From Sulfurovum sp. 16-42-52 (GTDB lineage: Bacteria > Campylobacterota > Campylobacteria > Campylobacterales > Sulfurovaceae), in NCBI GenBank assembly GCA_002281755.1, contig NCHB01000012.1:1-41706 (forward strand): a DNA stretch of 41,706 nt, in the 5' to 3' direction. Shown here one piece after another: positions 5,847 to 22,761 of this stretch; position 1 is the stretch's first letter, and the number at the start of each line of letters is the position of its first letter. A model generated the notes under the pieces. The model did not search any database. It had not been told where the DNA came from and saw nothing but the letters and a program-made list of their open reading frames with translations. Position numbers and translations under genes: made by a program.

Positions 5847-6400
5847 CGATGATAAAGAAAATTTTTTACCGTGTAAGAGGTGGTGGTGTTTGTCCTCCAA
5901 GAAAATCGTATAGAGATATTTTCTTTTCATTTTTTGGTGCTTTTTTGGGTATGTATCTCATCTCGACTATCAATCATTTTATGCAGATAGAACCGCTCAA
6001 TCAGCTTTTTGTTGTGGGTTCATTTGGTGCATCTGCTGTGTTGGTGTATGGTGCACCTCAAGCTGACTTTTCGCAGCCTAGAAACCTCATAGGTGGGCAT
6101 CTTATCTCTGCACTGATTGGTGTTTCCCTATACAAATACATCCATCTTGATATCGCTTTACTCAGTGCTTTGGCTGTGTCGCTCTCTATCGTTGCGATGC
6201 ACCTGACTAGAACCCTGCACCCACCTGGGGGAGCCACTGCCCTACTTGCTATCATCGGTTCAAACCAGATTCATACTTTGGGCTTTATGTTTGCATTTAC
6301 GCCCATCTTGACAGGCGCCGTGCTTTTACTGCTTGTCGCTCTTGTGGTCAATAACCAAACAAAAAACAAACAAAAACACTACCCACGCTATTGGTTCTAA
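5843..6400 (+). CDS. HPP-family integral membrane protein
   Basis: About 185 residues with four hydrophobic segments and the family signature LHPPGGATALLA in the third. HPP proteins are small membrane proteins, and a cyanobacterial and plastid member transports nitrite. Whether this one does so is unknown. An ATG exists at 5828 without a ribosome-binding site. I prefer the GTG at 5843, which forms a GTGA overlap with the upstream stop and has GGGGAAG 6 bases before it; ATG 5849 is a further option. The 3' end overlaps the convergent permease gene by four bases. Confidence 0.8.
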   Translation: MTMIKKIFYRVRGGGVCPPRKSYRDIFFSFFGAFLGMYLISTINHFMQIEPLNQLFVVGSFGASAVLVYGAPQADFSQPRNLIGGHLISALIGVSLYKYIHLDIALLSALAVSLSIVAMHLTRTLHPPGGATALLAIIGSNQIHTLGFMFAFTPILTGAVLLLLVALVVNNQTKNKQKHYPRYWF

Positions 6401-7341
6401 GGCAGTAGTTTAAGCTGTTTTTTGTCGATATAGACTGACAAGGGTATCTGCACCACATACCCAAACATGATAGGCAACAGCATCGACACACCAAATGTAC
6501 CCATAGAAAAAGTTGAAATCACCAAAGCAAGGGTCAGATAACGGGTCACACTGTGCCAAAAAGCAGCTCTTTGCTGTGCTGAGTTGAGATCATACACAAA
6601 GCTTGAGACACCCCACGTCAAAAGGTAAAAAACTGCCACCGCTACAAATGCAACAAGAAAGAGTTCTGGTTCAAAGTCATACACTTCGACCAAAAGCTGC
6701 GAATTTTGCAAGCCAAACAGGTAAAAAAGGATGATGAAAATGCTCACTTGGCTGATCACATTTCGATAGGTCTCTATCCAAGCAAGCAGAGGTTTAATGT
6801 AGCGTACTAACCTGCTGGCAAGAAAGGGTATGACGATCAAAAGCTCTATCACAGCACTTGCAAAACGCTCAATACTGATCTCTTCATCATAGCCGGTACC
6901 AAAATATCCTGCACTGTAGGTCGCAAAAATATGCAGTAAAAGCAGAGAAAATGAGATAAAAAGTAGGTTGATAAACAGCAGCAAAAACCCCAAAGAGGTA
7001 TCAGCATTGGTTTTTTTAATCCAGTGCATCACCATACCTCCTCCAGAAAGTACCGAGATTAAAAACAAGCCTGCAGCGATACCGAAATTTTGTGTAGCCA
7101 ATCCGATACCCACTGCAAAAATCGGCAGCACCAGATAGTTGATTACAAATCCTTTGAGTAATACTATTTTATGCTCCCAGACCAGTCTGATATCGCCCAG
7201 TTCAAACTTAAACAGCGAAGGCATAATGAGAGCAAGCCCTGCAAAAAGACAGATAGCAGTAGAAAATATAAAACCGTCTGTATAGCTTCCATACACAAAA
7301 CCAAGCACTGCTCCTAGAAAGATGACAACAATTAACTGCAT
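6397..7341 (-). CDS. Membrane permease of the bile acid:sodium symporter/auxin-efflux type
   Basis: About 314 residues, with nine or ten predicted membrane helices and a BART-superfamily look (residues 100-125 hold SVLSGGGMVMHW, a glycine-rich broken-helix motif). Members export or import organic anions or arsenite. No substrate can be assigned here, and no arsenic genes flank it. An in-frame ATG 15 codons upstream (7386) was not chosen, because the ATG at 7341 has a perfect GGAG site 5 bases before it and starts directly in the first membrane helix (MQLIVVIFLGAVLGFVYG). It appears monocistronic. Confidence 0.65.
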   Translation of the reverse strand: MQLIVVIFLGAVLGFVYGSYTDGFIFSTAICLFAGLALIMPSLFKFELGDIRLVWEHKIVLLKGFVINYLVLPIFAVGIGLATQNFGIAAGLFLISVLSGGGMVMHWIKKTNADTSLGFLLLFINLLFISFSLLLLHIFATYSAGYFGTGYDEEISIERFASAVIELLIVIPFLASRLVRYIKPLLAWIETYRNVISQVSIFIILFYLFGLQNSQLLVEVYDFEPELFLVAFVAVAVFYLLTWGVSSFVYDLNSAQQRAAFWHSVTRYLTLALVISTFSMGTFGVSMLLPIMFGYVVQIPLSVYIDKKQLKLLP

Positions 7342-7465
7342 TTTTTCTCCATTTATATAAACTTTAAAGACCTTAATCATACACAAAAATAGGCACTTTT
7401 TAGACAGGTTTCATTATAACTTGGTTATTATCGCCACCATTACAATTTAAACAGGGAAGCGCATT

Positions 7466-15034: not shown

Positions 15035-15478
15035 CTAAAAGTAATGCACCCCTATATAGACTGACACTTCATCCATTGAACTATAGACTTCAAAATCTGT
15101 CTCATACGCGCGTCTTTCATCCACGCTAGGGTCTTCAAAATACGCCCAAATATGCTTCCAACACTCCATCACCGCTTCATGGAGTTCACCTTTGGCGGAA
15201 AACTTGAGGTATCTGCCTTCTTGGATTCTTACACTCCCCGTACAACCATCACAGCTACCTTCAACACCTACCAAGAAATCATACATCCCATTTAAGTCAG
15301 ACTCATAATGATGATACACACCATAATGCGGAAACGGCGGTGTGTAAGTGCCTATCAACTCACCCCAAAGTGCACCTATCTTGTGGGTCTCTGGGTTCAT
15401 CTCATCGGCATTAGAAGTTCTGATTTTGAGTCCACTTATTTGCTTACTAGCGATATCTACTTTTTCTATATGGGTCAT
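15035..15478 (-). CDS. GyrI-like / AraC effector-binding domain protein
   Basis: A 147-residue stand-alone small-molecule-binding domain with no DNA-binding part. It shows the double SHS2 pattern of GyrI-like proteins: a strand-rich start (KQISGLKIRTSN), the IGALWGELIG helix, YHHYESDLNGMYDFLVGVE, and the closing FEVYSSMDEVSVYIGVHYF. Such proteins bind or hydrolyse small toxic or planar molecules. It is last in a minus-strand run with the ArsC/Spx-like protein and nhaA, 10 bases after the former. The role is not assignable. Confidence 0.75.
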   Translation of the reverse strand: MTHIEKVDIASKQISGLKIRTSNADEMNPETHKIGALWGELIGTYTPPFPHYGVYHHYESDLNGMYDFLVGVEGSCDGCTGSVRIQEGRYLKFSAKGELHEAVMECWKHIWAYFEDPSVDERRAYETDFEVYSSMDEVSVYIGVHYF

Positions 15479-15488
15479 AACTCAGACT

Positions 15489-15827
15489 TTAAAAGGTATC
15501 CGCATACTGCTCTTCATTATATCCGACTAAGACCTTGCCTTCATCATACTCGATAACAGGTCGCTTGATGAGATAGTTCTCTTTTACCATCCATAGAATC
15601 TTGCCTTCATCATCCAGATTGAGCTCTTTGAGTTTGAGGTCTCTGTACTTCGTGCCTTTGGCATTAAAAAGGAGTGCCAAGTCAACCTTGGTGAGCCAGT
15701 CACGTATCTTTGCTTCATCTACCTTTTCTTTTTTGTAGTCGACAAAATCAAACGCGATGTCTTTGTCTTTCATAAATTTGATTGCCTTGCCTACACTTGA
15801 GCAGGTCTTAATCCCGTACATGGTCAT
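15489..15827 (-). CDS. ArsC/Spx/YffB-family protein
   Basis: About 112 residues with the thioredoxin-like ArsC fold. The single active-site cysteine sits in MYGIKTCSSVGKAIKF. It lacks the second cysteine of Spx and resembles YffB, whose substrate is unclear; glutathione-linked thiol chemistry has been suggested. The C-terminal half has LLIKRP-like ENYLIKRPVIEYDEGKVLVGY, the usual arginine-containing motif. ATG codons exist at 15833, 15827 and 15821. I chose 15827 because AAGGA lies 7 bases before it but only about 2 bases before 15833. Confidence 0.8.
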   Translation of the reverse strand: MTMYGIKTCSSVGKAIKFMKDKDIAFDFVDYKKEKVDEAKIRDWLTKVDLALLFNAKGTKYRDLKLKELNLDDEGKILWMVKENYLIKRPVIEYDEGKVLVGYNEEQYADTF

Positions 15828-15845
15828 ACTCATATCCTTTGTAAA

Positions 15846-17180
15846 TTAGTTGCTTGCTTTGGCGACAAACCTCAGCCATGCATACCCAAATAGTCCTGCA
15901 AATAAAGAGGCTGCCAAGATGCCTACTTTAGCCTGAAAGATGAGTTCAGGATTGCTTGCAAATGCCAAATCTGCCACAAAGATAGACATCGTAAAGCCGA
16001 TGCCACCCAAAAAGGCTACACCAAAAATCTGGTTCATTGTGCTCTGTTTTGGAAGTGTCGCAATATTCAGCCGTATCGCCAGCCATGCTACACCAAAGAT
16101 ACCCAATACTTTACCCAGCACCAAACCTGCAATGATACCCAAAGAGACAGGTTTCAAGAGTGTCTCACCCATAGAACCAAAGTCGATGCTTATACCTGCA
16201 TTGGCAAGGGCAAACAGTGGAATGATGACGATAGAGACGGGAAGATGCAAGTCGTGTTCAAGTTTGGCTGCGGGCGTTTCAACACTACTGATTCTTTTTT
16301 TGATTTGTGTGAGTATCGCTTTTTGCGTCTCATTCATGGTATGAGCATCCACACAAGGCTGGGCATCAAACGCATCCAATAGATCTTCAAGCCCTGCTCT
16401 TAGATTGTGCGGGTCTCTTTTGGGCATAGAGGGGATAGAGAGTGCGGCGATGATCCCGGCGATGGTAGCATGTACCCCTGATTGGAGCATGAAAAACCAC
16501 ATCACGACCCCTACCATAAAATACGGTAACACTCTGCGGATACCCAAGCGGTTCATCAAGATCATAAGTAAAAACATGACTCCGGCTAAAGCCAAAGGAG
16601 TGATAGCGATCTGTTCAGTGTAAAAAAGTGCTATCACCACCACAGCCCCCAAGTCATCGACAATCGCCAACGCCACCAAGAAAGTCACCAACGCAGGCGG
16701 CACGCGCTTACCCAAAATCACCAAAGCACTGATAGCAAAGGCAATATCCGTAGCCATCGGAATGCCCCAGCCAGCTTCACCTGGAGAGCCTGCATTGATA
16801 CCCATATAGATTAGTGCCGGCATCGCCATACCGCCTAAAGCAGCCAAGATAGGAAGAATCGCCACTTTAAGGTCAGAAAGCTCCCCCACCGAGACTTCCC
16901 GTTTGATCTCCAACCCTATCATAAAAAAGAAAATTGCCATCAGGGCATCGTTTATCCAGTGGTGTATGCTGTGAGAAAGGCTCCACTCACCTACACTGAG
17001 TGCTATTTTAGTGTGCAAAAGATGTTCATAGCTCTGTGCAAGCGGTGAATTGGCAAGCAGCAGTGCAACAAGCGTCATACACAAAAGCACAATACCCGTT
17101 GTGGTCTGTGCATGTAAAAAAGCTTCAAAAGGTGTGATTATTTTTTCAAATTGCTTCTGCCACGGTGCGTAAATCTTCAT
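15846..17180 (-). CDS. nhaA: Na+/H+ antiporter NhaA
   Basis: A 444-residue inner-membrane antiporter that expels Na+ in exchange for protons and controls internal pH. It is recognised by the NhaA pattern IHHWINDALMAIFFFMIGLEIKRE and by ATDIAFAISALVILGKRVP followed by ALAIVDDLGAVVVIALFYTEQ, which holds the two adjacent transport aspartates. It is somewhat longer than E. coli NhaA because of a hydrophilic loop near residues 255-300. It starts four bases after the stop of a 54-codon membrane-protein gene, so the two are probably co-translated. Confidence 0.96.
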   Translation of the reverse strand: MKIYAPWQKQFEKIITPFEAFLHAQTTTGIVLLCMTLVALLLANSPLAQSYEHLLHTKIALSVGEWSLSHSIHHWINDALMAIFFFMIGLEIKREVSVGELSDLKVAILPILAALGGMAMPALIYMGINAGSPGEAGWGIPMATDIAFAISALVILGKRVPPALVTFLVALAIVDDLGAVVVIALFYTEQIAITPLALAGVMFLLMILMNRLGIRRVLPYFMVGVVMWFFMLQSGVHATIAGIIAALSIPSMPKRDPHNLRAGLEDLLDAFDAQPCVDAHTMNETQKAILTQIKKRISSVETPAAKLEHDLHLPVSIVIIPLFALANAGISIDFGSMGETLLKPVSLGIIAGLVLGKVLGIFGVAWLAIRLNIATLPKQSTMNQIFGVAFLGGIGFTMSIFVADLAFASNPELIFQAKVGILAASLFAGLFGYAWLRFVAKASN

Positions 17181-17184
17181 GGCT

Positions 17185-17349
17185 CTACTTGTAAGTGTGC
17201 GGAACGAGTCTGTTATCCTGTCCTAAATTTTCTCTAAATTCCAACTCTCTTGGATCAGATCGCATCACGTGCAAAAACATATAGACATACCCCCCCACGA
17301 CTGTAACCAGTGCAAACAGACAAAAAGGTATCACGATTAAAAGTTCCAT
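17185..17349 (-). CDS. Small single-span membrane protein upstream of nhaA (54 aa)
   Basis: A short reading frame of 54 codons. The protein begins MELLIVIPFCLFALVTVVGG, forms one membrane helix to about residue 27, and ends in a charged tail containing RSDPRELEFRENLGQDN. It has an excellent GGGGG ribosome-binding site 4 bases before the ATG, a TACAAT -10 box at 17376-17381, and a stop only four bases before the nhaA start. It vaguely recalls small oxidase-assembly proteins such as CcoS, but the match is too weak to name. Given its place, an accessory subunit or regulator of NhaA is possible (inference). Confidence 0.65.
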   Translation of the reverse strand: MELLIVIPFCLFALVTVVGGYVYMFLHVMRSDPRELEFRENLGQDNRLVPHTYK

Positions 17350-17375
17350 ATTTCCCCCAAAAACAGTATTTCTTT

Positions 17376-17381
17376 ATTGTA
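17376..17381 (-). promoter_or_regulatory. Probable -10 element for the small ORF-nhaA operon
   Basis: TACAAT on the minus strand, about 27 bases before the small gene's ATG, in a 49-base gap after the thioredoxin gene that holds no terminator. No -35 match is visible, as is common in Campylobacterota promoters. Read-through from the upstream stress block remains possible. Confidence 0.4.
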
Positions 17382-17398
17382 GCAAAAACTTTACAAAC

Positions 17399-18217
17399 CT
17401 ACTTGAATAGTTGCAAAAATTCATCACGGCTGCTATAGCCGACAAACTCTTTTTCTATGCTCTCGTCCGTGCTTGAAACAATGTAGAGTATGGGCGTGAA
17501 GCGTGATTTGGCAAACTGTTTGGGAAAAGAGTCTGCATCAATATTGAGCATCACTGGGATAAATTTTGCCTTTATTTTTGTATCAATATCGGTTTGGGAC
17601 AAAACGCGATTTTCCAATTTTCTACACCAAGGACAGTAGGAAGTCGTCATAAAGAGCATCAGAGCTTTGCCCTCTTTTTTAGCTTTACTACGTGCTGCAT
17701 TGTAGTCTGTAAAATACCCCATTTTTGTTGCAAAGTCCTCATGACTGAATATTTTTTGTTCTTTGGAGAGCTTTTGGTTGTCTTCTTGATACTGCAGTTT
17801 AAACGCCTCCAGCATCTCTTCAGTGGCATCAGCGAGCTGATCTTCCACATCTTCCTCGTCTTTAAAGTCCGGCGCCAGTAATCTGGTATCTTTATAGGTC
17901 AAGGCAAACACCGCCTGCTTGCCATCTTTTCTGTGCACATACTCACCCAGCTCTAAGTCCACTCTTATGCCCACTGTCTCACCGACAGATATATCTGAGA
18001 TCACAAAGACCAGCACACGGGAAGGATGCCCTGAGGTATCGATACCCAACTCTTTAGAGACACCTTGCATCAGCAGCTTAATCTCTTCACTGTAGGCTTG
18101 TGTCTTAGATGACATATTGGCTACGATGGGATCGTAAGAGTTTACATCTGTGAGCACATAAAAACTTTGTGCCTGTAGGCTGAGTGAGGTAAAAAATGTA
18201 AGTAGTAAGAGTCTCAT
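17399..18217 (-). CDS. Periplasmic thioredoxin-fold protein with N-terminal extension
   Basis: About 272 residues. A signal peptide (MRLLLLTFFTSLSLQAQ) directs it to the periplasm. Residues about 20-150 form an unrecognised domain rich in acidic residues. The last 110 residues are a thioredoxin domain with the active site TTSYCPWCRKLENRV and the cis-proline context SRFTPILYIV. The CPWC centre resembles SoxW/DUF255-type reductases that keep periplasmic thiols reduced. The ATG at 18217 (AAGGA 9 bases upstream) is preferred to an in-frame ATG at 18289 that would lie inside the methyltransferase gene. It follows that gene by four bases. Confidence 0.78.
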   Translation of the reverse strand: MRLLLLTFFTSLSLQAQSFYVLTDVNSYDPIVANMSSKTQAYSEEIKLLMQGVSKELGIDTSGHPSRVLVFVISDISVGETVGIRVDLELGEYVHRKDGKQAVFALTYKDTRLLAPDFKDEEDVEDQLADATEEMLEAFKLQYQEDNQKLSKEQKIFSHEDFATKMGYFTDYNAARSKAKKEGKALMLFMTTSYCPWCRKLENRVLSQTDIDTKIKAKFIPVMLNIDADSFPKQFAKSRFTPILYIVSSTDESIEKEFVGYSSRDEFLQLFK

Positions 18218-18221
18218 GGGA

Positions 18222-18833
18222 TTATTCCTTTGTGTAGAGGTTGCAAAATTTCGTGCCTGAAATCTTCGATGTTTCTCTGTGCAGTTCACAGCTTAGCTGA
18301 GTGAGTCCAAACGCCTTGAACCACTCCAGCTCATGATCTTCAAGTGGCCATGGTGGTCCTTTGAACACCGCTTCTTTTTTGTGTGCCACAAGGAGCAGAT
18401 GGGCTTTAGGCGCAAGAGTGTCAGCGATGGCTTTGATCATTTTTTCTCGAAACGCTACGGGCAACGACTGTATCGTGAGCGCCTCAAATACAAAGTCAAA
18501 ATAGCCCAGATAACACTCTGGCATATCAAAGATATCTTGTTTCTCAAAAACGACTTTAGACTCTGCAAATCGCTCTTTGGCTACATCCAAAGCAGTCTGG
18601 GAGATATCAATCGCCGTTACCTCGTACCCTGCGGCCTCAAGTGCTACCGCATCATCACCCAAACCACACCCTATGACCAATGCTTTACCATGATGATGTT
18701 CAGTTTTGTTCAGATACGCTTCAAGCAAAGGATTGACCGCCAATCTTGCCCATGGAATGTTCTCATGCCTGTCTTTATGCTCTTTATAGAGTTCATCAAA
18801 CCATTGTGTGGCTTCTTTGTGTGACTGTTTCAT
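18222..18833 (-). CDS. SAM-dependent methyltransferase (thiopurine methyltransferase-like)
   Basis: A 203-residue class I methyltransferase. Motif I is ALVIGCGLGDDAVALEAAG (about 51-69), followed by the acidic strand EVTAIDIS (about 71-78) and VVFEKQDIFD. The N-terminal WFDELYKEH and the lack of other domains fit the TPMT/TehB-like group that methylates small thiols, selenium or tellurium compounds. The true substrate is unknown. It starts 11 bases after the NssR-like regulator gene and is followed four bases later by the thioredoxin gene, so a role in thiol or electrophile detoxification is a reasonable inference. Confidence 0.8.
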   Translation of the reverse strand: MKQSHKEATQWFDELYKEHKDRHENIPWARLAVNPLLEAYLNKTEHHHGKALVIGCGLGDDAVALEAAGYEVTAIDISQTALDVAKERFAESKVVFEKQDIFDMPECYLGYFDFVFEALTIQSLPVAFREKMIKAIADTLAPKAHLLLVAHKKEAVFKGPPWPLEDHELEWFKAFGLTQLSCELHRETSKISGTKFCNLYTKE

Positions 18834-18844
18834 CTTGCTTTCCT

Positions 18845-19471
18845 TTAAGCTATCTTATAGCCCGTGCTTACTTTTATGAGCTTCTTGTCTTTGACCAGTT
18901 TTCGAATGTTTCGAGAGAAAGTCTCAGCTGTCATACCCAGTACCGAAGCGATTTCATATTGTTTAAGATCAAGACTGAGTTGTGGGTTTTTACTGTAAAA
19001 GTGCAGTATTTTGTCTATGGATTTTGATGCGATGTTGAAGTGTATGTTTTGCTGTAAAAGTTCTATTTTTGTTAGCAATGACTGCATAATGGCATACGAG
19101 ATACCCGGATGCATCATAAAAAGTTTCTCAAACGCTTCCAAATCGATTTTAATGAGTCTTCCCTCAGTCACAAAGCGCGCAGAAGAAGGCAAAGGGCTAT
19201 GTCTGAGCGTGGCAGGTTCAGCGATGAGCTCGTGACGCTTAAAGTAGTTGATGACGATCTCATTGCCTTTATCATCGTGCTTAAAGACACTCACCACACC
19301 CTCAATCAAGAGCATCAACGCTTTACTCGTATCACCGACAGTGAAGAGTGTTTCACCCTCTTGGTAGTGATGCAGGTGTGAGATGCCTTCTAGTGAAGTG
19401 AACTCCTCATCATTAAGTGAGGCAAACAGACTCGTCTCTTGTAGTTGTTGCTTGATGGATGCCTTATTCAT
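18845..19471 (-). CDS. Crp/Fnr-family regulator, NssR-like
   Basis: A 208-residue regulator. It has a cyclic-nucleotide-binding-like beta roll (about 15-110), a long dimerisation helix (about 125-150) and a winged helix. The recognition helix contains TAETFSRNIRKL, with E183, S186 and R187 forming the ExxSR pattern of Fnr-type readers of TTGA half-sites. There is no cysteine anywhere, so it cannot hold an iron-sulfur cluster as Fnr does. That matches NssR of Campylobacter jejuni, which controls the nitrosative-stress globins. The globin gene directly upstream carries a fitting box. No ribosome-binding site precedes the ATG, and a TATAAT lies 6 bases upstream, hinting at a leaderless transcript. 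Confidence 0.8.
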   Translation of the reverse strand: MNKASIKQQLQETSLFASLNDEEFTSLEGISHLHHYQEGETLFTVGDTSKALMLLIEGVVSVFKHDDKGNEIVINYFKRHELIAEPATLRHSPLPSSARFVTEGRLIKIDLEAFEKLFMMHPGISYAIMQSLLTKIELLQQNIHFNIASKSIDKILHFYSKNPQLSLDLKQYEIASVLGMTAETFSRNIRKLVKDKKLIKVSTGYKIA

Positions 19472-19520
19472 GGCATGATTATAGCAGAGCTACTTTATAA
19501 AAGAATGAACCTAAAACTGC

Positions 19521-19943
19521 TTAGCGTTCTGCGTAAAGCTCTTTTTCTCTTGCTATCAAGACATTAGCCAAAAAGCCATACGCCTCTTGCCAAGCTGCCA
19601 TGACTTCATCACTTGCGCCATCACCCAATACAGACTTAATCGCTTGCAGCAATGCATCCCCTACCATCGGGTAATGCTCAGGCAAAACATGTGTTTTGAC
19701 ATGCACAGAAGCCATCTTCTCGATGCCTTTACCTAGATTTTCCAGCTGATCGATATTTGCTGCATACGCATACACCGCGTTGGCAAGTTTTTTATGCTGA
19801 TCGGCTGAAGCGTCTTTAAAAAGCTCTTGTGTCTGCGGATACTTTTCAAAAAGCACCTTGTACATCGCTGTGGTGATGGCTTCACCGTGTTGTTTGAGTA
19901 TCGGAGCGGTTGCTTTGATGATTGCTTTTGTTTCGTTGTTCAT
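19521..19943 (-). CDS. cgb: Single-domain globin, Cgb/Vgb type (nitric oxide detoxification)
   Basis: A 140-residue three-over-three globin with no reductase domain. Key residues are Y28 (B10), probable Q49 (E7), and the proximal histidine H81, seven residues before the PEHYPMVG motif shared with flavohemoglobins and Campylobacter Cgb. In that relative it oxidises nitric oxide to nitrate. The start has an AAAGGAT site. The promoter shows a Fnr-type palindrome (19999-20012) placed for activation, and an NssR-like regulator follows 49 bases downstream, which supports a nitrosative-stress role. Confidence 0.9.
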   Translation of the reverse strand: MNNETKAIIKATAPILKQHGEAITTAMYKVLFEKYPQTQELFKDASADQHKKLANAVYAYAANIDQLENLGKGIEKMASVHVKTHVLPEHYPMVGDALLQAIKSVLGDGASDEVMAAWQEAYGFLANVLIAREKELYAER

Positions 19944-19970
19944 AGACTATCCTTTAGTGTGAGATAGCGC

Positions 19971-20012
19971 ACTATAACCAAGAAAATTGGGTGCACACTT
20001 GACAATTATCAA
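19971..20012 (-). promoter_or_regulatory. Globin promoter with Fnr/NssR-type operator at about -41.5
   Basis: The + strand reads TTGAC-AATT-ATCAA at 19999-20012, one mismatch from the symmetric Fnr box TTGAT-N4-ATCAA. On the minus strand a TATAGT -10 lies at 19976-19971, giving a start of transcription near 19964. The box centre (20005.5) is then about 41.5 bases upstream, the classic class II activator position. A second inverted repeat, TAGTGTG-N6-CGCACTA (19955-19974, one mismatched pair), covers the -10 and start. The Fnr-type box overlaps the stop codon of ogt at 20009-20011. Confidence 0.65.
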
Positions 20013-20518
20013 TTCTCGTGTGTCTCCAAATCCAAGAGCATCTTCTTTGCCTCCAACCCACCCGCATAACCCGTTAGTGTGCCGTTTGAGCCTATGATGC
20101 GGTGACAGGGTATAAACAATGACAGTGCATTGGCACCCACAGCAGAGGCTACAGCTCTCACTGCTTTTTCATTGCCTATGGCTTTTGCCAAAGATACATA
20201 CGAAGCGGTATCTCCATAAGAAATGTCACCCAAAGCATCCCATACCTGCTTTTGAAACACCGTTCCTACGCACAAATAAGGCAGGTCAAAGTGTTGAAGT
20301 TCACCCCTAAAGTACAACTCAAGTTGCTCTTTGGCTTTCTGCGTGACAACACTTTTTTGCTCCACATAAGTCGAATGAAGCCCTCTTTGGAGTCTTGCAT
20401 CTACACTAGAACGCGCTTTTCTGTCTCTCCAGTCAGCCAAACAAAGCCTCTCTTCATAACTTCCCAAGATAAGCTCACCTGCTGGGCTTGTGTAGTAGTC
20501 TACGGCTATCATGGACAT
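20009..20518 (-). CDS. ogt: O6-alkylguanine-DNA alkyltransferase
   Basis: A 169-residue suicide repair enzyme that moves alkyl groups from O6 of guanine to its own cysteine. The active site FIPCHRIIGSNG carries the acceptor C138. The helix-turn-helix region with VRAVASAVGANAL precedes it, and the asparagine-hinge equivalent is intact. There is no Ada-type N-terminal domain, so it is the Ogt/MGMT form. The start overlaps the MmcQ/YjbR gene by 10 bases, and the end overlaps the globin operator, placing it in a run of alkylation-repair genes read into the nitric oxide genes. Confidence 0.93.
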   Translation of the reverse strand: MSMIAVDYYTSPAGELILGSYEERLCLADWRDRKARSSVDARLQRGLHSTYVEQKSVVTQKAKEQLELYFRGELQHFDLPYLCVGTVFQKQVWDALGDISYGDTASYVSLAKAIGNEKAVRAVASAVGANALSLFIPCHRIIGSNGTLTGYAGGLEAKKMLLDLETHEN

Positions 20519-20871
20519 CCTTGCAGTAAATGTGCTTTTTGTTTTTTCGTCAAACTAGAAAATACCAATTCATACGAGTGGTCTATGAGTTCTTTAATGG
20601 TCTCCTCATCCACATCACTATCTTCTACGCTAACCGTATTCCAATGCTTTTTGTTCATATGATACCCCGATACAACACCCTCATACAACGAACGCAACTC
20701 CAACGCATACAGCGGGTCACACTTAAGATTGACGCGAACAGGATGCTCTTCTGAAGTCAAAGCAAACATCTTATCTCCCACGCGATACACCCTAGTCGTC
20801 TCATCAAAAGGGTAATCAAACGAAGCACCTTCTTTTGAAAGCAAATAGGTATTGAGTTCTTCAAAATTCAT
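20509..20871 (-). CDS. MmcQ/YjbR-family protein
   Basis: A 120-residue protein with the CyaY-like double-wing fold of the MmcQ/YjbR family. Family marks include FDYPFDETTRVYRVGDKMFAL (residues 18-38, partly) and YHMNKKHWNTVSVE, with a conserved histidine and tryptophan. No biochemical role is established for the family, although DNA-binding has been proposed. It lies between an AlkC-like glycosylase and ogt and overlaps ogt by 10 bases, so an accessory role in alkylation repair is a context-based guess. Confidence 0.85.
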   Translation of the reverse strand: MNFEELNTYLLSKEGASFDYPFDETTRVYRVGDKMFALTSEEHPVRVNLKCDPLYALELRSLYEGVVSGYHMNKKHWNTVSVEDSDVDEETIKELIDHSYELVFSSLTKKQKAHLLQGCP

Positions 20872-20886
20872 TGTTTTCCTTTCAGT

Positions 20887-22014
20887 TTACAGACTTAATT
20901 CAAAACACTTCACACCACAAGACTTTCCATTGATTTGAAGTTCTACTTTGTGTTCGCCACCGTAAAGGGTACGTGTGGTCATATTGGCTTTAAAGATATG
21001 TATTTTGTGGAGTGTAAGCACTTCGTCTTTTTTGACGGTGACTTTTTTGAGCTTATGGACTTTGGAACTTGGTGTACCTGATTTGGTTTGATAATGCACG
21101 ATGTAGTCAATCATCAAAGCAAGCGCTTCTTTCGCTTCGATACGCACACTAAACCCAAGTGATTCACCCACGCAAACCCTGTCATGATGCAGCACAAACT
21201 CACTCACTTCAAAAGAGGCTTGGCTCTTGTAACCAAGCAATGCCAAAGCATCCTCATCTCCTTGTTTTACCAGCGTTCGCAAAGCGTGTCGCATGATGTA
21301 GTCCATCTCTTTAGGGTTCTGTTTTCCTGAAGCCTTCCATCGCTTGAGTGTTTCTATCACCACTGTGGGATCTATCTTGGAGAGGTCGTTGAGATGGTTG
21401 GCAACAGAACGGGTCACAAAACGGGTTTTGTCAGTAAAAAGCACCTCAAGTACACCCAAAGCACTCGTGTATTTGAGTGTTATCTTCTTACCCCAAGGCA
21501 ATTTTGGTCTCAAACCCTCTGAAGCCAGTCTTCGTTCATGGTAGTGCGGTGAACGAGCACAAGCCTCTAACATCTTCAGTGTTTCATCAGGAAAGACATT
21601 AATGAAATCGCGTATAGCATACTCAACCGAAAAACGTTTGGTTACCTCTCTGAGTGCCCCCAGCGAAACATCGACATAACTTTCACAACATCCATGATAA
21701 GCAATAAACTCCCCATACGGCGCATAGATAAAATCCCCAAAATCATCATCGGTTTTACTGCTATCTAGTTCCTGCGGGAGTGAAGCCAAAAGTAACTTTG
21801 TTGCGTGTTCAAAATCGTCAGGTAGATACACACTCAGCATATCGCGTATATGATAAATGCGCTCTTTTAGCTCCAGTTCGCCAAAGCGTGAGAGCACTGC
21901 TTCTTCAAACATTTCCTGCTTAAACTCCTCAAACACAGCCTTTATCTCAGTCGCTATCTTGTGTACTTTTGAGGCCGAAAATAGCGTGTCCTTGAGCAGT
22001 ATTTTTTCTTTCAT
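20887..22014 (-). CDS. AlkC/AlkD-like DNA alkylation repair glycosylase
   Basis: A 375-residue protein. Residues about 1-250 form HEAT-like helical repeats of the AlkC/AlkD superfamily, which remove 3-methyladenine and other N-alkyl bases without base flipping. Diagnostic stretches are SPHYHERRLASEGLRPKLPW (about 156-175) and TRFVTRSVANHLNDLSKIDP (about 197-216). The last 110 residues look like a beta-sandwich, matching the Ig-like C-terminal domain of AlkC proteins, so AlkC is more likely than AlkD. It is the first gene of the run AlkC-YjbR-Ogt. A TATAAT lies at 22042-22047 on its strand. Confidence 0.85.
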   Translation of the reverse strand: MKEKILLKDTLFSASKVHKIATEIKAVFEEFKQEMFEEAVLSRFGELELKERIYHIRDMLSVYLPDDFEHATKLLLASLPQELDSSKTDDDFGDFIYAPYGEFIAYHGCCESYVDVSLGALREVTKRFSVEYAIRDFINVFPDETLKMLEACARSPHYHERRLASEGLRPKLPWGKKITLKYTSALGVLEVLFTDKTRFVTRSVANHLNDLSKIDPTVVIETLKRWKASGKQNPKEMDYIMRHALRTLVKQGDEDALALLGYKSQASFEVSEFVLHHDRVCVGESLGFSVRIEAKEALALMIDYIVHYQTKSGTPSSKVHKLKKVTVKKDEVLTLHKIHIFKANMTTRTLYGGEHKVELQINGKSCGVKCFELSL

Positions 22015-22115: not shown

Positions 22116-22144
22116 TTGACAATTGTATATAAATAATATATAAT
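22116..22144 (+). promoter_or_regulatory. Consensus promoter of the RHH/RelE toxin-antitoxin operon
   Basis: TTGACA (22116-22121), a 17-base spacer and TATAAT (22139-22144): a perfect sigma70 promoter. The spacer and -10 are pure A/T repeats around TATATA-N5-TATATA (22126-22142), a possible site for the ribbon-helix-helix antitoxin. Transcription should start near 22151, with an AAAGGAT ribosome-binding site just before the ATG at 22170. Confidence 0.75.
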
Positions 22145-22169: not shown

Positions 22170-22448
22170 ATGCATACATTATCTCAATTGGAAAAACAAC
22201 AAGTGGGTTTAAGGCTTCCAAAATATTTAATTGATGAGATTGATACATTTACAAAACAGTTTTCACTTAACAGAACAGATATCATCACAGAAGCAGTCAA
22301 AGCGTATGTCAATGAGCAAAAAGCAAAGATGTTTTATGATAATTTTGATGACGCATGCAAAGAGCTTAAAACACTCACAGATGGAACACAAAAAAGAGAT
22401 TCCATGCAAACACTTGATGAACTCATAAATGAACTTGAAGATTATTAG
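22170..22448 (+). CDS. Ribbon-helix-helix antitoxin
   Basis: A 92-residue protein. The N-terminal 50 residues read as a ribbon-helix-helix DNA-binding fold: strand QVGLRLPKYLIDEIDTF, then helices with SLNRTDIITEAVKAYV. The acidic C-terminal half (FDDACKEL, then TLDELINELEDY) would wrap the toxin. An in-frame ATG at 22146 exists, but the one at 22170 has AAAGGA 5 bases upstream and fits the predicted transcript start. The end overlaps the RelE-like toxin gene by 20 bases, a strong mark of a type II pair. Confidence 0.82.
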   Translation: MHTLSQLEKQQVGLRLPKYLIDEIDTFTKQFSLNRTDIITEAVKAYVNEQKAKMFYDNFDDACKELKTLTDGTQKRDSMQTLDELINELEDY

Positions 22449-22761
22449 TCTGGACTCTTTTGGCAGAGATGTCAAAAGACTTTATAAAAAATACAAACAG
22501 CTCTCAACAGATCTTAAAAATTTGCAAGATATTTTAAAAGAAGATCCAAAAGCAGGTATTGAACTTGGGAAAAACTGCTATAAAATACGATTGGCAAACA
22601 CATCGGTTCCGACAGGGAAAAGTGGTGGCTTTAGGGTAATTTATTATTTTTTAGATAAAGATGTGCACATTTATCTCATAGCAATGTACTCCAAAAGTGA
22701 ATTGGAAAATATCAGTGAAGAGAAGATTATCAAGATATTGACGGGTAATCATCTAATATAA
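22429..22761 (+). CDS. RelE/ParE-superfamily toxin
   Basis: A 110-residue basic protein. It has the RelE-type fold: an N-terminal helical hairpin (FGRDVKRLYKKYKQL), then strands with CYKIRLANTSVPTGKSGGFRVIYYF and DVHIYLIAMYSKSE. The GKSGGFRVIYYF stretch is typical of RelE/HigB-type mRNA interferases of the GKxGG group. The start lies within the antitoxin gene (20-base overlap). The stop is one base from the convergent mutarotase stop, so the pair is wedged tightly between two operons. Confidence 0.85.
   Translation: MNLKIISLDSFGRDVKRLYKKYKQLSTDLKNLQDILKEDPKAGIELGKNCYKIRLANTSVPTGKSGGFRVIYYFLDKDVHIYLIAMYSKSELENISEEKIIKILTGNHLI

Follow-up and report, generated by a model that had tools for sequence, protein, structure and literature searches.

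The globin-regulator locus of Sulfurovum sp. 16-42-52

We analysed a 41,706-nucleotide stretch of DNA from Sulfurovum sp. 16-42-52, which makes up one entire contig (C25) in a genome of 1.99 Mb and is referred to here as the window, and studied a block of seven genes that lie on its minus strand throughout and are transcribed in the direction 22014 to 17399. In the order of transcription they encode AlkC, YjbR, Ogt, a single-domain globin, a Crp/Fnr regulator, a TPMT-like methyltransferase and an exported thioredoxin-fold protein (Table 1). As read from the sequence, the conserved unit in this block is the globin together with its own regulator, predicted to be separately switched. We consider it likely that the block comprises two neighbouring units, a nitric oxide (NO) defence switch and the trio alkC-yjbR-ogt, accompanied by passenger genes, and not one module.

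An earlier interpretation of the letters alone (the sequence-only reading) had described seven co-directional genes with small gaps or overlaps, and this is borne out by the open reading frames, the family matches and the spacings. The gaps are 15 base pairs (bp) for alkC-yjbR, 65 bp for ogt-globin, 49 bp for globin-regulator, 11 bp for regulator-methyltransferase and, given a thioredoxin start at ATG 18217, 4 bp for methyltransferase-thioredoxin, while yjbR and ogt overlap by 10 bp. The borders of that block were drawn too narrowly, as the seven genes belong to a longer run of 11 genes in the same direction (15035-22014), which continues beyond the thioredoxin gene with a 54-amino-acid (aa) protein, nhaA and one gene each of arsC/Spx-like and GyrI-like type.

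Table 1. Predicted genes and regulatory features of the block, in the order of transcription (E, expectation value; SAM, S-adenosylmethionine; Hb, haemoglobin).
Feature	Position	Strand	Match or remark
AlkC-type alkylpurine DNA glycosylase (predicted), 375 aa, HEAT-like repeats and C-terminal domain	20887..22014	-	PDB 5vhv/5vi0
YjbR/MmcQ family protein, 120 aa	20509..20871	-	PF04237, E 2.5e-29
Ogt, O6-methylguanine-DNA methyltransferase, 169 aa, PCHR motif	20009..20518	-	TIGR00589, 111.6 bits (cut-off 46.4)
Palindromic predicted operator TTGATAATTGTCAA	19999..20012	-	69 bp 5' of globin ATG, 22 bp 5' of -10 box
-10 box TATAGT, globin promoter	19971..19976	-	22 bp past operator
Single-domain globin, 140 aa, Vitreoscilla Hb/Cgb type	19521..19943	-	PDB 7dih, 1vhb, 2wy4; NF009805
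TATAAT preceded by TG, predicted leaderless regulator promoter	19478..19483	-	6 bp 5' of regulator ATG
Crp/Fnr-family regulator, 208 aa, without cysteine, recognition helix AETFSR	18845..19471	-	PF00027, PF13545
TPMT-like SAM-dependent methyltransferase, 203 aa	18222..18833	-	PF05724, E 5e-20
Exported thioredoxin-fold protein, CPWC motif	17399..18217	-	PF13098, PF13899; signal peptide MRLLLLTFFTSLSLQAQ read from sequence

A conserved operator precedes the globin gene

The globin has no reductase part, aligns end to end with 1vhb and 7dih and retains the HYP motif of the proximal histidine, as expected for the Vitreoscilla Hb/Cgb type. Its structure matches are 7dih (E 1.6e-42), 1vhb (E 7.9e-33) and the single-domain haemoglobin 2wy4 (E 1.9e-26), thermoglobin and Vitreoscilla Hb being the closest solved globins, and in the flavohaemoprotein model NF009805 the globin part alone was matched.

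The predicted operator 5' of the globin has TTGA in common with the end of ogt, so that, as claimed before, it spans the TGA stop codon of this gene. An exact TTGAYAATTRTCAA occurs a single time in the genome, at this operator. In the window one TTGATNNNNNTCAA site was observed and 0.99 were expected by chance; the significance of the operator thus derives from its position and conservation, not from the mere occurrence of TTGATNNNNNTCAA. An operator with 12-14 of 14 matches precedes all 20 globin genes of this group. When the best -10 box was taken from spacers of 19 to 25 bp, the operator-to--10 spacer was exactly 22 bp in 19 of the 20 promoters, and the flanks differed. By the predicted promoter, the operator centre lies near -41.5, which is the position of a class II activator site. 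The distance of ~49 bp from the operator start to the transcription start, as inferred from the -10 box, matches the 48-49 bp reported for the Crp/Fnr sites at napA, norE and nosB of Nitrosophilus (PMC11539149). Campylobacter- and Helicobacter-like genomes, which belong to the same taxonomic order, have TTAACATAAATCAA at the corresponding place 5' of the globin. This promoter layout is consistent with activation of the globin under nitrosative stress.

The regulator forms a clade of its own

Using an alignment of seven orthologues against 84,980 species genomes, we found 31 regulator orthologues, all from Campylobacterota and mostly from Sulfurovum and Sulfurimonas. The nearest named relatives of the window are Sulfurovum metagenome-assembled genomes, and its regulator shares 92% identity with the counterpart in Sulfurovum sp. 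S06.Bin221. A globin adjoins the regulator in 17 of the 31 loci, in two orders (globin-regulator and regulator-globin), and the palindrome lies 5' of the globin in both. In locus L058 (genome G075) glnB is followed by the regulator, the globin is absent and the operator has decayed, while relatives have glnB-operator-globin-regulator; this looks like a globin deletion. Immediately 3' of the regulator, two loci without adjacent globin carry a Protoglobin-PsiE fusion gene (L199:6651-7556 and L203:907-1812).

The protein combines a cyclic-nucleotide-type sensor with a Crp-type helix-turn-helix, and TTGA-N6-TCAA lies ~48-49 bp 5' of the inferred start at the globin; in this broad sense it is of the Nss/Dnr type. 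The absence of any cysteine means that it is not an iron-sulphur (Fe-S) Fnr. Its recognition helix has A at CRP position 180, E at 181 and R at 185.

The sequence-only reading had called the regulator NssR-like, a label that holds only in a loose sense. NssR has A180/Q181 in its recognition helix and binds TTAAC-N4-GTTAA (PMC1274295). The published A180/Q181 is present in two NssR-candidate sequences, and the window regulator has A180/E181. In our tree the window clade (100/100) and the NssR candidates from Campylobacter/Helicobacter-like genomes with a globin (also 100/100) form two distinct groups, and the nor-adjacent Crp/Fnr regulators are the nearest neighbour group of the window clade. 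The site of the window clade is TTGAY-N4-RTCAA, with TTGA and not the NssR-type half-site, and glutamate at position 181 is in line with TTGA half-sites. Separate clades, half-sites and E181 together rule out that the regulator is the orthologue of C. jejuni NssR.

Of 29 orthologous loci, about 22 have a box resembling TATAAT or TATAGT, often preceded by TG, 6-9 bp 5' of the regulator start codon. At this distance a leaderless mRNA is predicted and, with it, a promoter of the regulator's own between globin and regulator. Across the phylum synteny is very low and leaderless mRNAs are general (PMC3847290), and leaderless status is said to change quickly. Despite this reported fast turnover, the leaderless signal (19471-19490 in the window) is kept in that large share of loci.

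The same promoter layout at further genes

Elsewhere in the genome we found four near-matches to the operator. Three were dismissed as further targets, being located inside genes, and the fourth, TTGACAAATATCAA, lies 22 bp 5' of a TATACT box and 63 bp 5' of a bacteriohemerythrin gene (L178:1973-2449, contig C36 of the window genome, G000), which is probably a second target of the regulator. The bacteriohemerythrin of L201 has the same arrangement of operator, 22 bp and -10 box. In L203 (4162-6129), the same operator and 22-bp spacing precede norC and norB, the products of which align with the solved NO reductase (E 3e-55 and 2e-204); this norCB adjoins a second regulator of the window clade, and either regulator could serve it. 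The layout shared by globin, bacteriohemerythrin and norCB makes a nitric oxide regulon likely.

Is the whole block conserved?

We compared the neighbourhoods of matches in a set of 120 family genomes with the window proteins. Six of the 120 carry the globin and 10 the methyltransferase; full-length Ogt is present in 16, and AlkC in about 12, a further, thirteenth match being marginal. The full window order (thiE-galM-alkC-yjbR-ogt-globin-regulator-methyltransferase-thioredoxin-nhaA-arsC-gyrI) is kept only in L197, the nearest relative, at ~85% DNA identity. Other family genomes bearing globin, AlkC or Ogt have the block genes on separate contigs or kilobases apart, and none of the AlkC/Ogt loci examined there has the globin or regulator nearby. 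The sequence-only reading had proposed gene-order conservation among Campylobacterota as a check, which thus came out negative, and had named scattering of the genes in close relatives as part of what would speak against a single module; such scattering is what the family neighbourhoods present. A conserved operon of the whole block is ruled out by these arrangements.

YjbR, Ogt, AlkC, the methyltransferase and the thioredoxin loosely tend to cluster within a few kilobases, a tendency from which the globin is excluded: ogt, methyltransferase, thioredoxin and alkC lie inside about 8 kb in G087, yjbR and ogt are adjacent in G098, and yjbR and alkC in G097. Sometimes accD-thiE stands beside such repair clusters (G098, G067 and G092).

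The repair trio and the other genes of the run

No Pfam or NCBIfam model matched the AlkC protein. It aligns with the solved AlkC (5vhv/5vi0, E 7.3e-43) over residues 10-373, corresponding to residues 7-359 of 5vhv with the C-terminal domain included, which is a full-length match. Ogt combines the methyltransferase DNA-binding domain with the PCHR active site, present in the translation as IPCHRIIG. No globin-type operator was found 5' of alkC, yjbR or ogt, either in the window or in L197. We rejected TTGACAATTGTATA (22116-22129) as a second operator 5' of alkC, as the -35 element of a perfect promoter (TTGACA-17-TATAAT) lies within it. This promoter belongs to a relBE-like toxin-antitoxin pair on the plus strand (22170-22761), between galM and alkC. 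L197 lacks relBE, and its galM overlaps alkC, the trio continuing from thiE-galM; the transcriptional setting of alkC therefore differs between the two loci.

At the other end of the block, the GTG start of the thioredoxin gene in the mechanical list of open reading frames (18289) is probably too long, because the signal peptide begins at 18217. Contig C27 of the window genome (2665-3045) holds stop-interrupted pieces of a second copy of this thioredoxin-fold gene, probably a pseudogene. The nhaA gene lies close to globin or regulator in three differing arrangements (15846-17180 in the window, L198:1874-3200 and L055:16641-17963). An SBF-family transporter stands 3' of the regulator in L053, L058, L059 and L208-L211, and its window homologue (6397-7386) is 11 kb off.

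Discussion

Based on the conserved pair, the conserved operator with its spacing, the gene identities and the lack of block conservation, all of which are read from sequence, we propose the following model. The regulator, probably produced from its own leaderless promoter, would bind TTGATAATTGTCAA on sensing nitric oxide or a related signal and, from -41.5, would activate RNA polymerase at the globin promoter; the globin would then oxidise NO to nitrate. The regulator probably also activates the bacteriohemerythrin gene elsewhere in the genome. NO as the signal, the activation, the pairing of regulator and operator and the activity of the globin are what we infer here, and the nitric oxide defence role proposed earlier for the two genes is strengthened by the activator site and by its recurrence at bacteriohemerythrin and norCB. 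The genes alkC-yjbR-ogt would form a separate co-directional trio upstream of the operator, without a matching site and, in the window, behind the relBE pair, and the closeness of trio and globin may mostly be local history in a low-synteny phylum. Because nitrosated metabolites alkylate DNA, a weak selective link between the two is possible.

Several observations weigh against two independent units. The regulator may have other main targets, since 14 of its 31 loci lack an adjacent globin, and the root and the long branches of its tree are uncertain. Read-through from ogt into the globin gene is possible, because no convincing terminator was found in the ogt-globin interval. Moreover, repair genes adjoin the regulator or the globin in four further loci, which a purely local history would not predict. 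L226 has globin-regulator-alkC, with the alkC start touching the regulator end, presumably as an operon behind one operator, and is the only locus in which a repair gene may be under the same operator; L199 has yjbR-ogt ahead of the regulator, in L225 the globin and genes resembling MagIII and Ada/Ogt are convergent, and L214 has a MagIII-like gene at the regulator/globin locus. Repair genes lie near the regulator in 5 of 31 loci and in 2 of 88 control loci (Fisher p 0.013; 0.08 after lineages were collapsed by hand), a suggestive enrichment for which the MagIII family was added only after its sighting.

These loci also favour the single nitrosative-damage module of the sequence-only reading, whose genes would be expressed together to remove NO, repair alkylated DNA and restore thiols, as do the full order in L197 and the co-occurrence of globin and full-length Ogt. 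Leaving the window aside, 4 of the 5 genomes with globin also have full-length Ogt, against 0.63 expected (naive p 0.0008; 0.024 with shuffling confined to genus and size class). The chemistry is plausible: endogenous N-nitroso compounds are reported to cause most spontaneous alkylation mutations in E. coli (PMC6813329), and the alkylating agent MNNG (N-methyl-N'-nitro-N-nitrosoguanidine) induces hmp (PMC6505713). Against a single module stand the lack of an operator at the repair genes in the window and L197, the location of trio, methyltransferase and thioredoxin elsewhere in most relatives, and the AlkC/Ogt loci without globin or regulator. The thiol-restoring part was dropped, as neither methyltransferase nor thioredoxin co-occurs significantly with the globin (p 0.33 and 0.23). 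The single module thus did not hold up, and we regard it as distinctly unlikely. A selective link between the globin switch and alkylation repair is possible, though not shown. Its broader form, in which the Sulfurovum/Sulfurimonas regulator clade would run a nitrosative-stress programme that repeatedly joins NO removal with DNA-alkylation repair, sometimes in one operon as in L226, seems to us rather unlikely.

Could the operator instead serve a regulator of the general Fnr/Dnr type that governs anaerobic or nitrate respiration, with the adjacent regulator controlling something else? TTGA-N6-TCAA is common to many Crp/Fnr proteins, including the Nss regulators of Wolinella and Nitrosophilus, and the window genome encodes a second Crp/Fnr paralogue. 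Yet the AATT-type core and the exact site travel with the window regulator wherever a globin is adjacent, in both gene orders, and in G075 the loss of the globin goes with a degraded operator; we therefore give a general regulator only a small chance. Least probable in our view is that the globin supplies or stores oxygen under micro-oxic conditions and that oxygen or the redox state, not NO, is what the regulator responds to. Thermoglobin and Vitreoscilla Hb as the closest solved globins would fit such a role, and bacteriohemerythrin is an oxygen binder. A role in oxygen supply is at odds with norCB under the same promoter layout in L203, with a regulator that has no cysteine for an Fe-S cluster, and with the homologous single-domain globins of C. 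jejuni and H. pullorum, which protect against NO (PMC5577044).

The pair of the window, a Dnr/Nss-type regulator with a Cgb-type globin, is a further member of an already known kind. It resembles NssR-Cgb of Campylobacter jejuni in joining a Crp/Fnr regulator to a single-domain globin whose start lies about 70 bp 3' of an activator-type site, but differs in the separate clade, the TTGA instead of TTAA half-site and the regulator often adjoining the globin. A truncated globin is likewise under the control of C. jejuni NssR, the comparison here being with the single-domain one. With Wolinella Nss and the NssB-type nor-linked regulators of deep-sea Campylobacterota it shares TTGA-N6-TCAA and the 48-49 bp to the transcription start, and the nor-adjacent regulators are its neighbours in the tree, whereas the window clade is a distinct group tied to the globin; Wolinella is likened here from the literature, not from sequences. 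A Dnr-type regulator and a cgb-type globin behind its site are likewise predicted in the DNR-cgb cluster of Acidithiobacillus ferrooxidans (PMC1274295), which belongs to another phylum and where two oxidoreductase genes follow the globin. The repair trio recalls the Ada/AlkA adaptive response in that genes for O6-alkylguanine and alkylpurine repair stand close together, but the window has no Ada regulator domain, its Ogt is single-function and its glycosylase is AlkC instead of AlkA.

In summary, free-living vent and sediment Campylobacterota, whose metabolic regulation has been described as little known (PMC6682613), gain a predicted NO switch with an exact predicted site and a candidate regulon of globin, bacteriohemerythrin and norCB. 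If the clade-wide programme with alkylation repair existed, its alkylation response would be set off by nitric oxide and not by methylated DNA, and a real link to repair would connect, through gene regulation, the by-products of denitrification with the repair of alkylated DNA.

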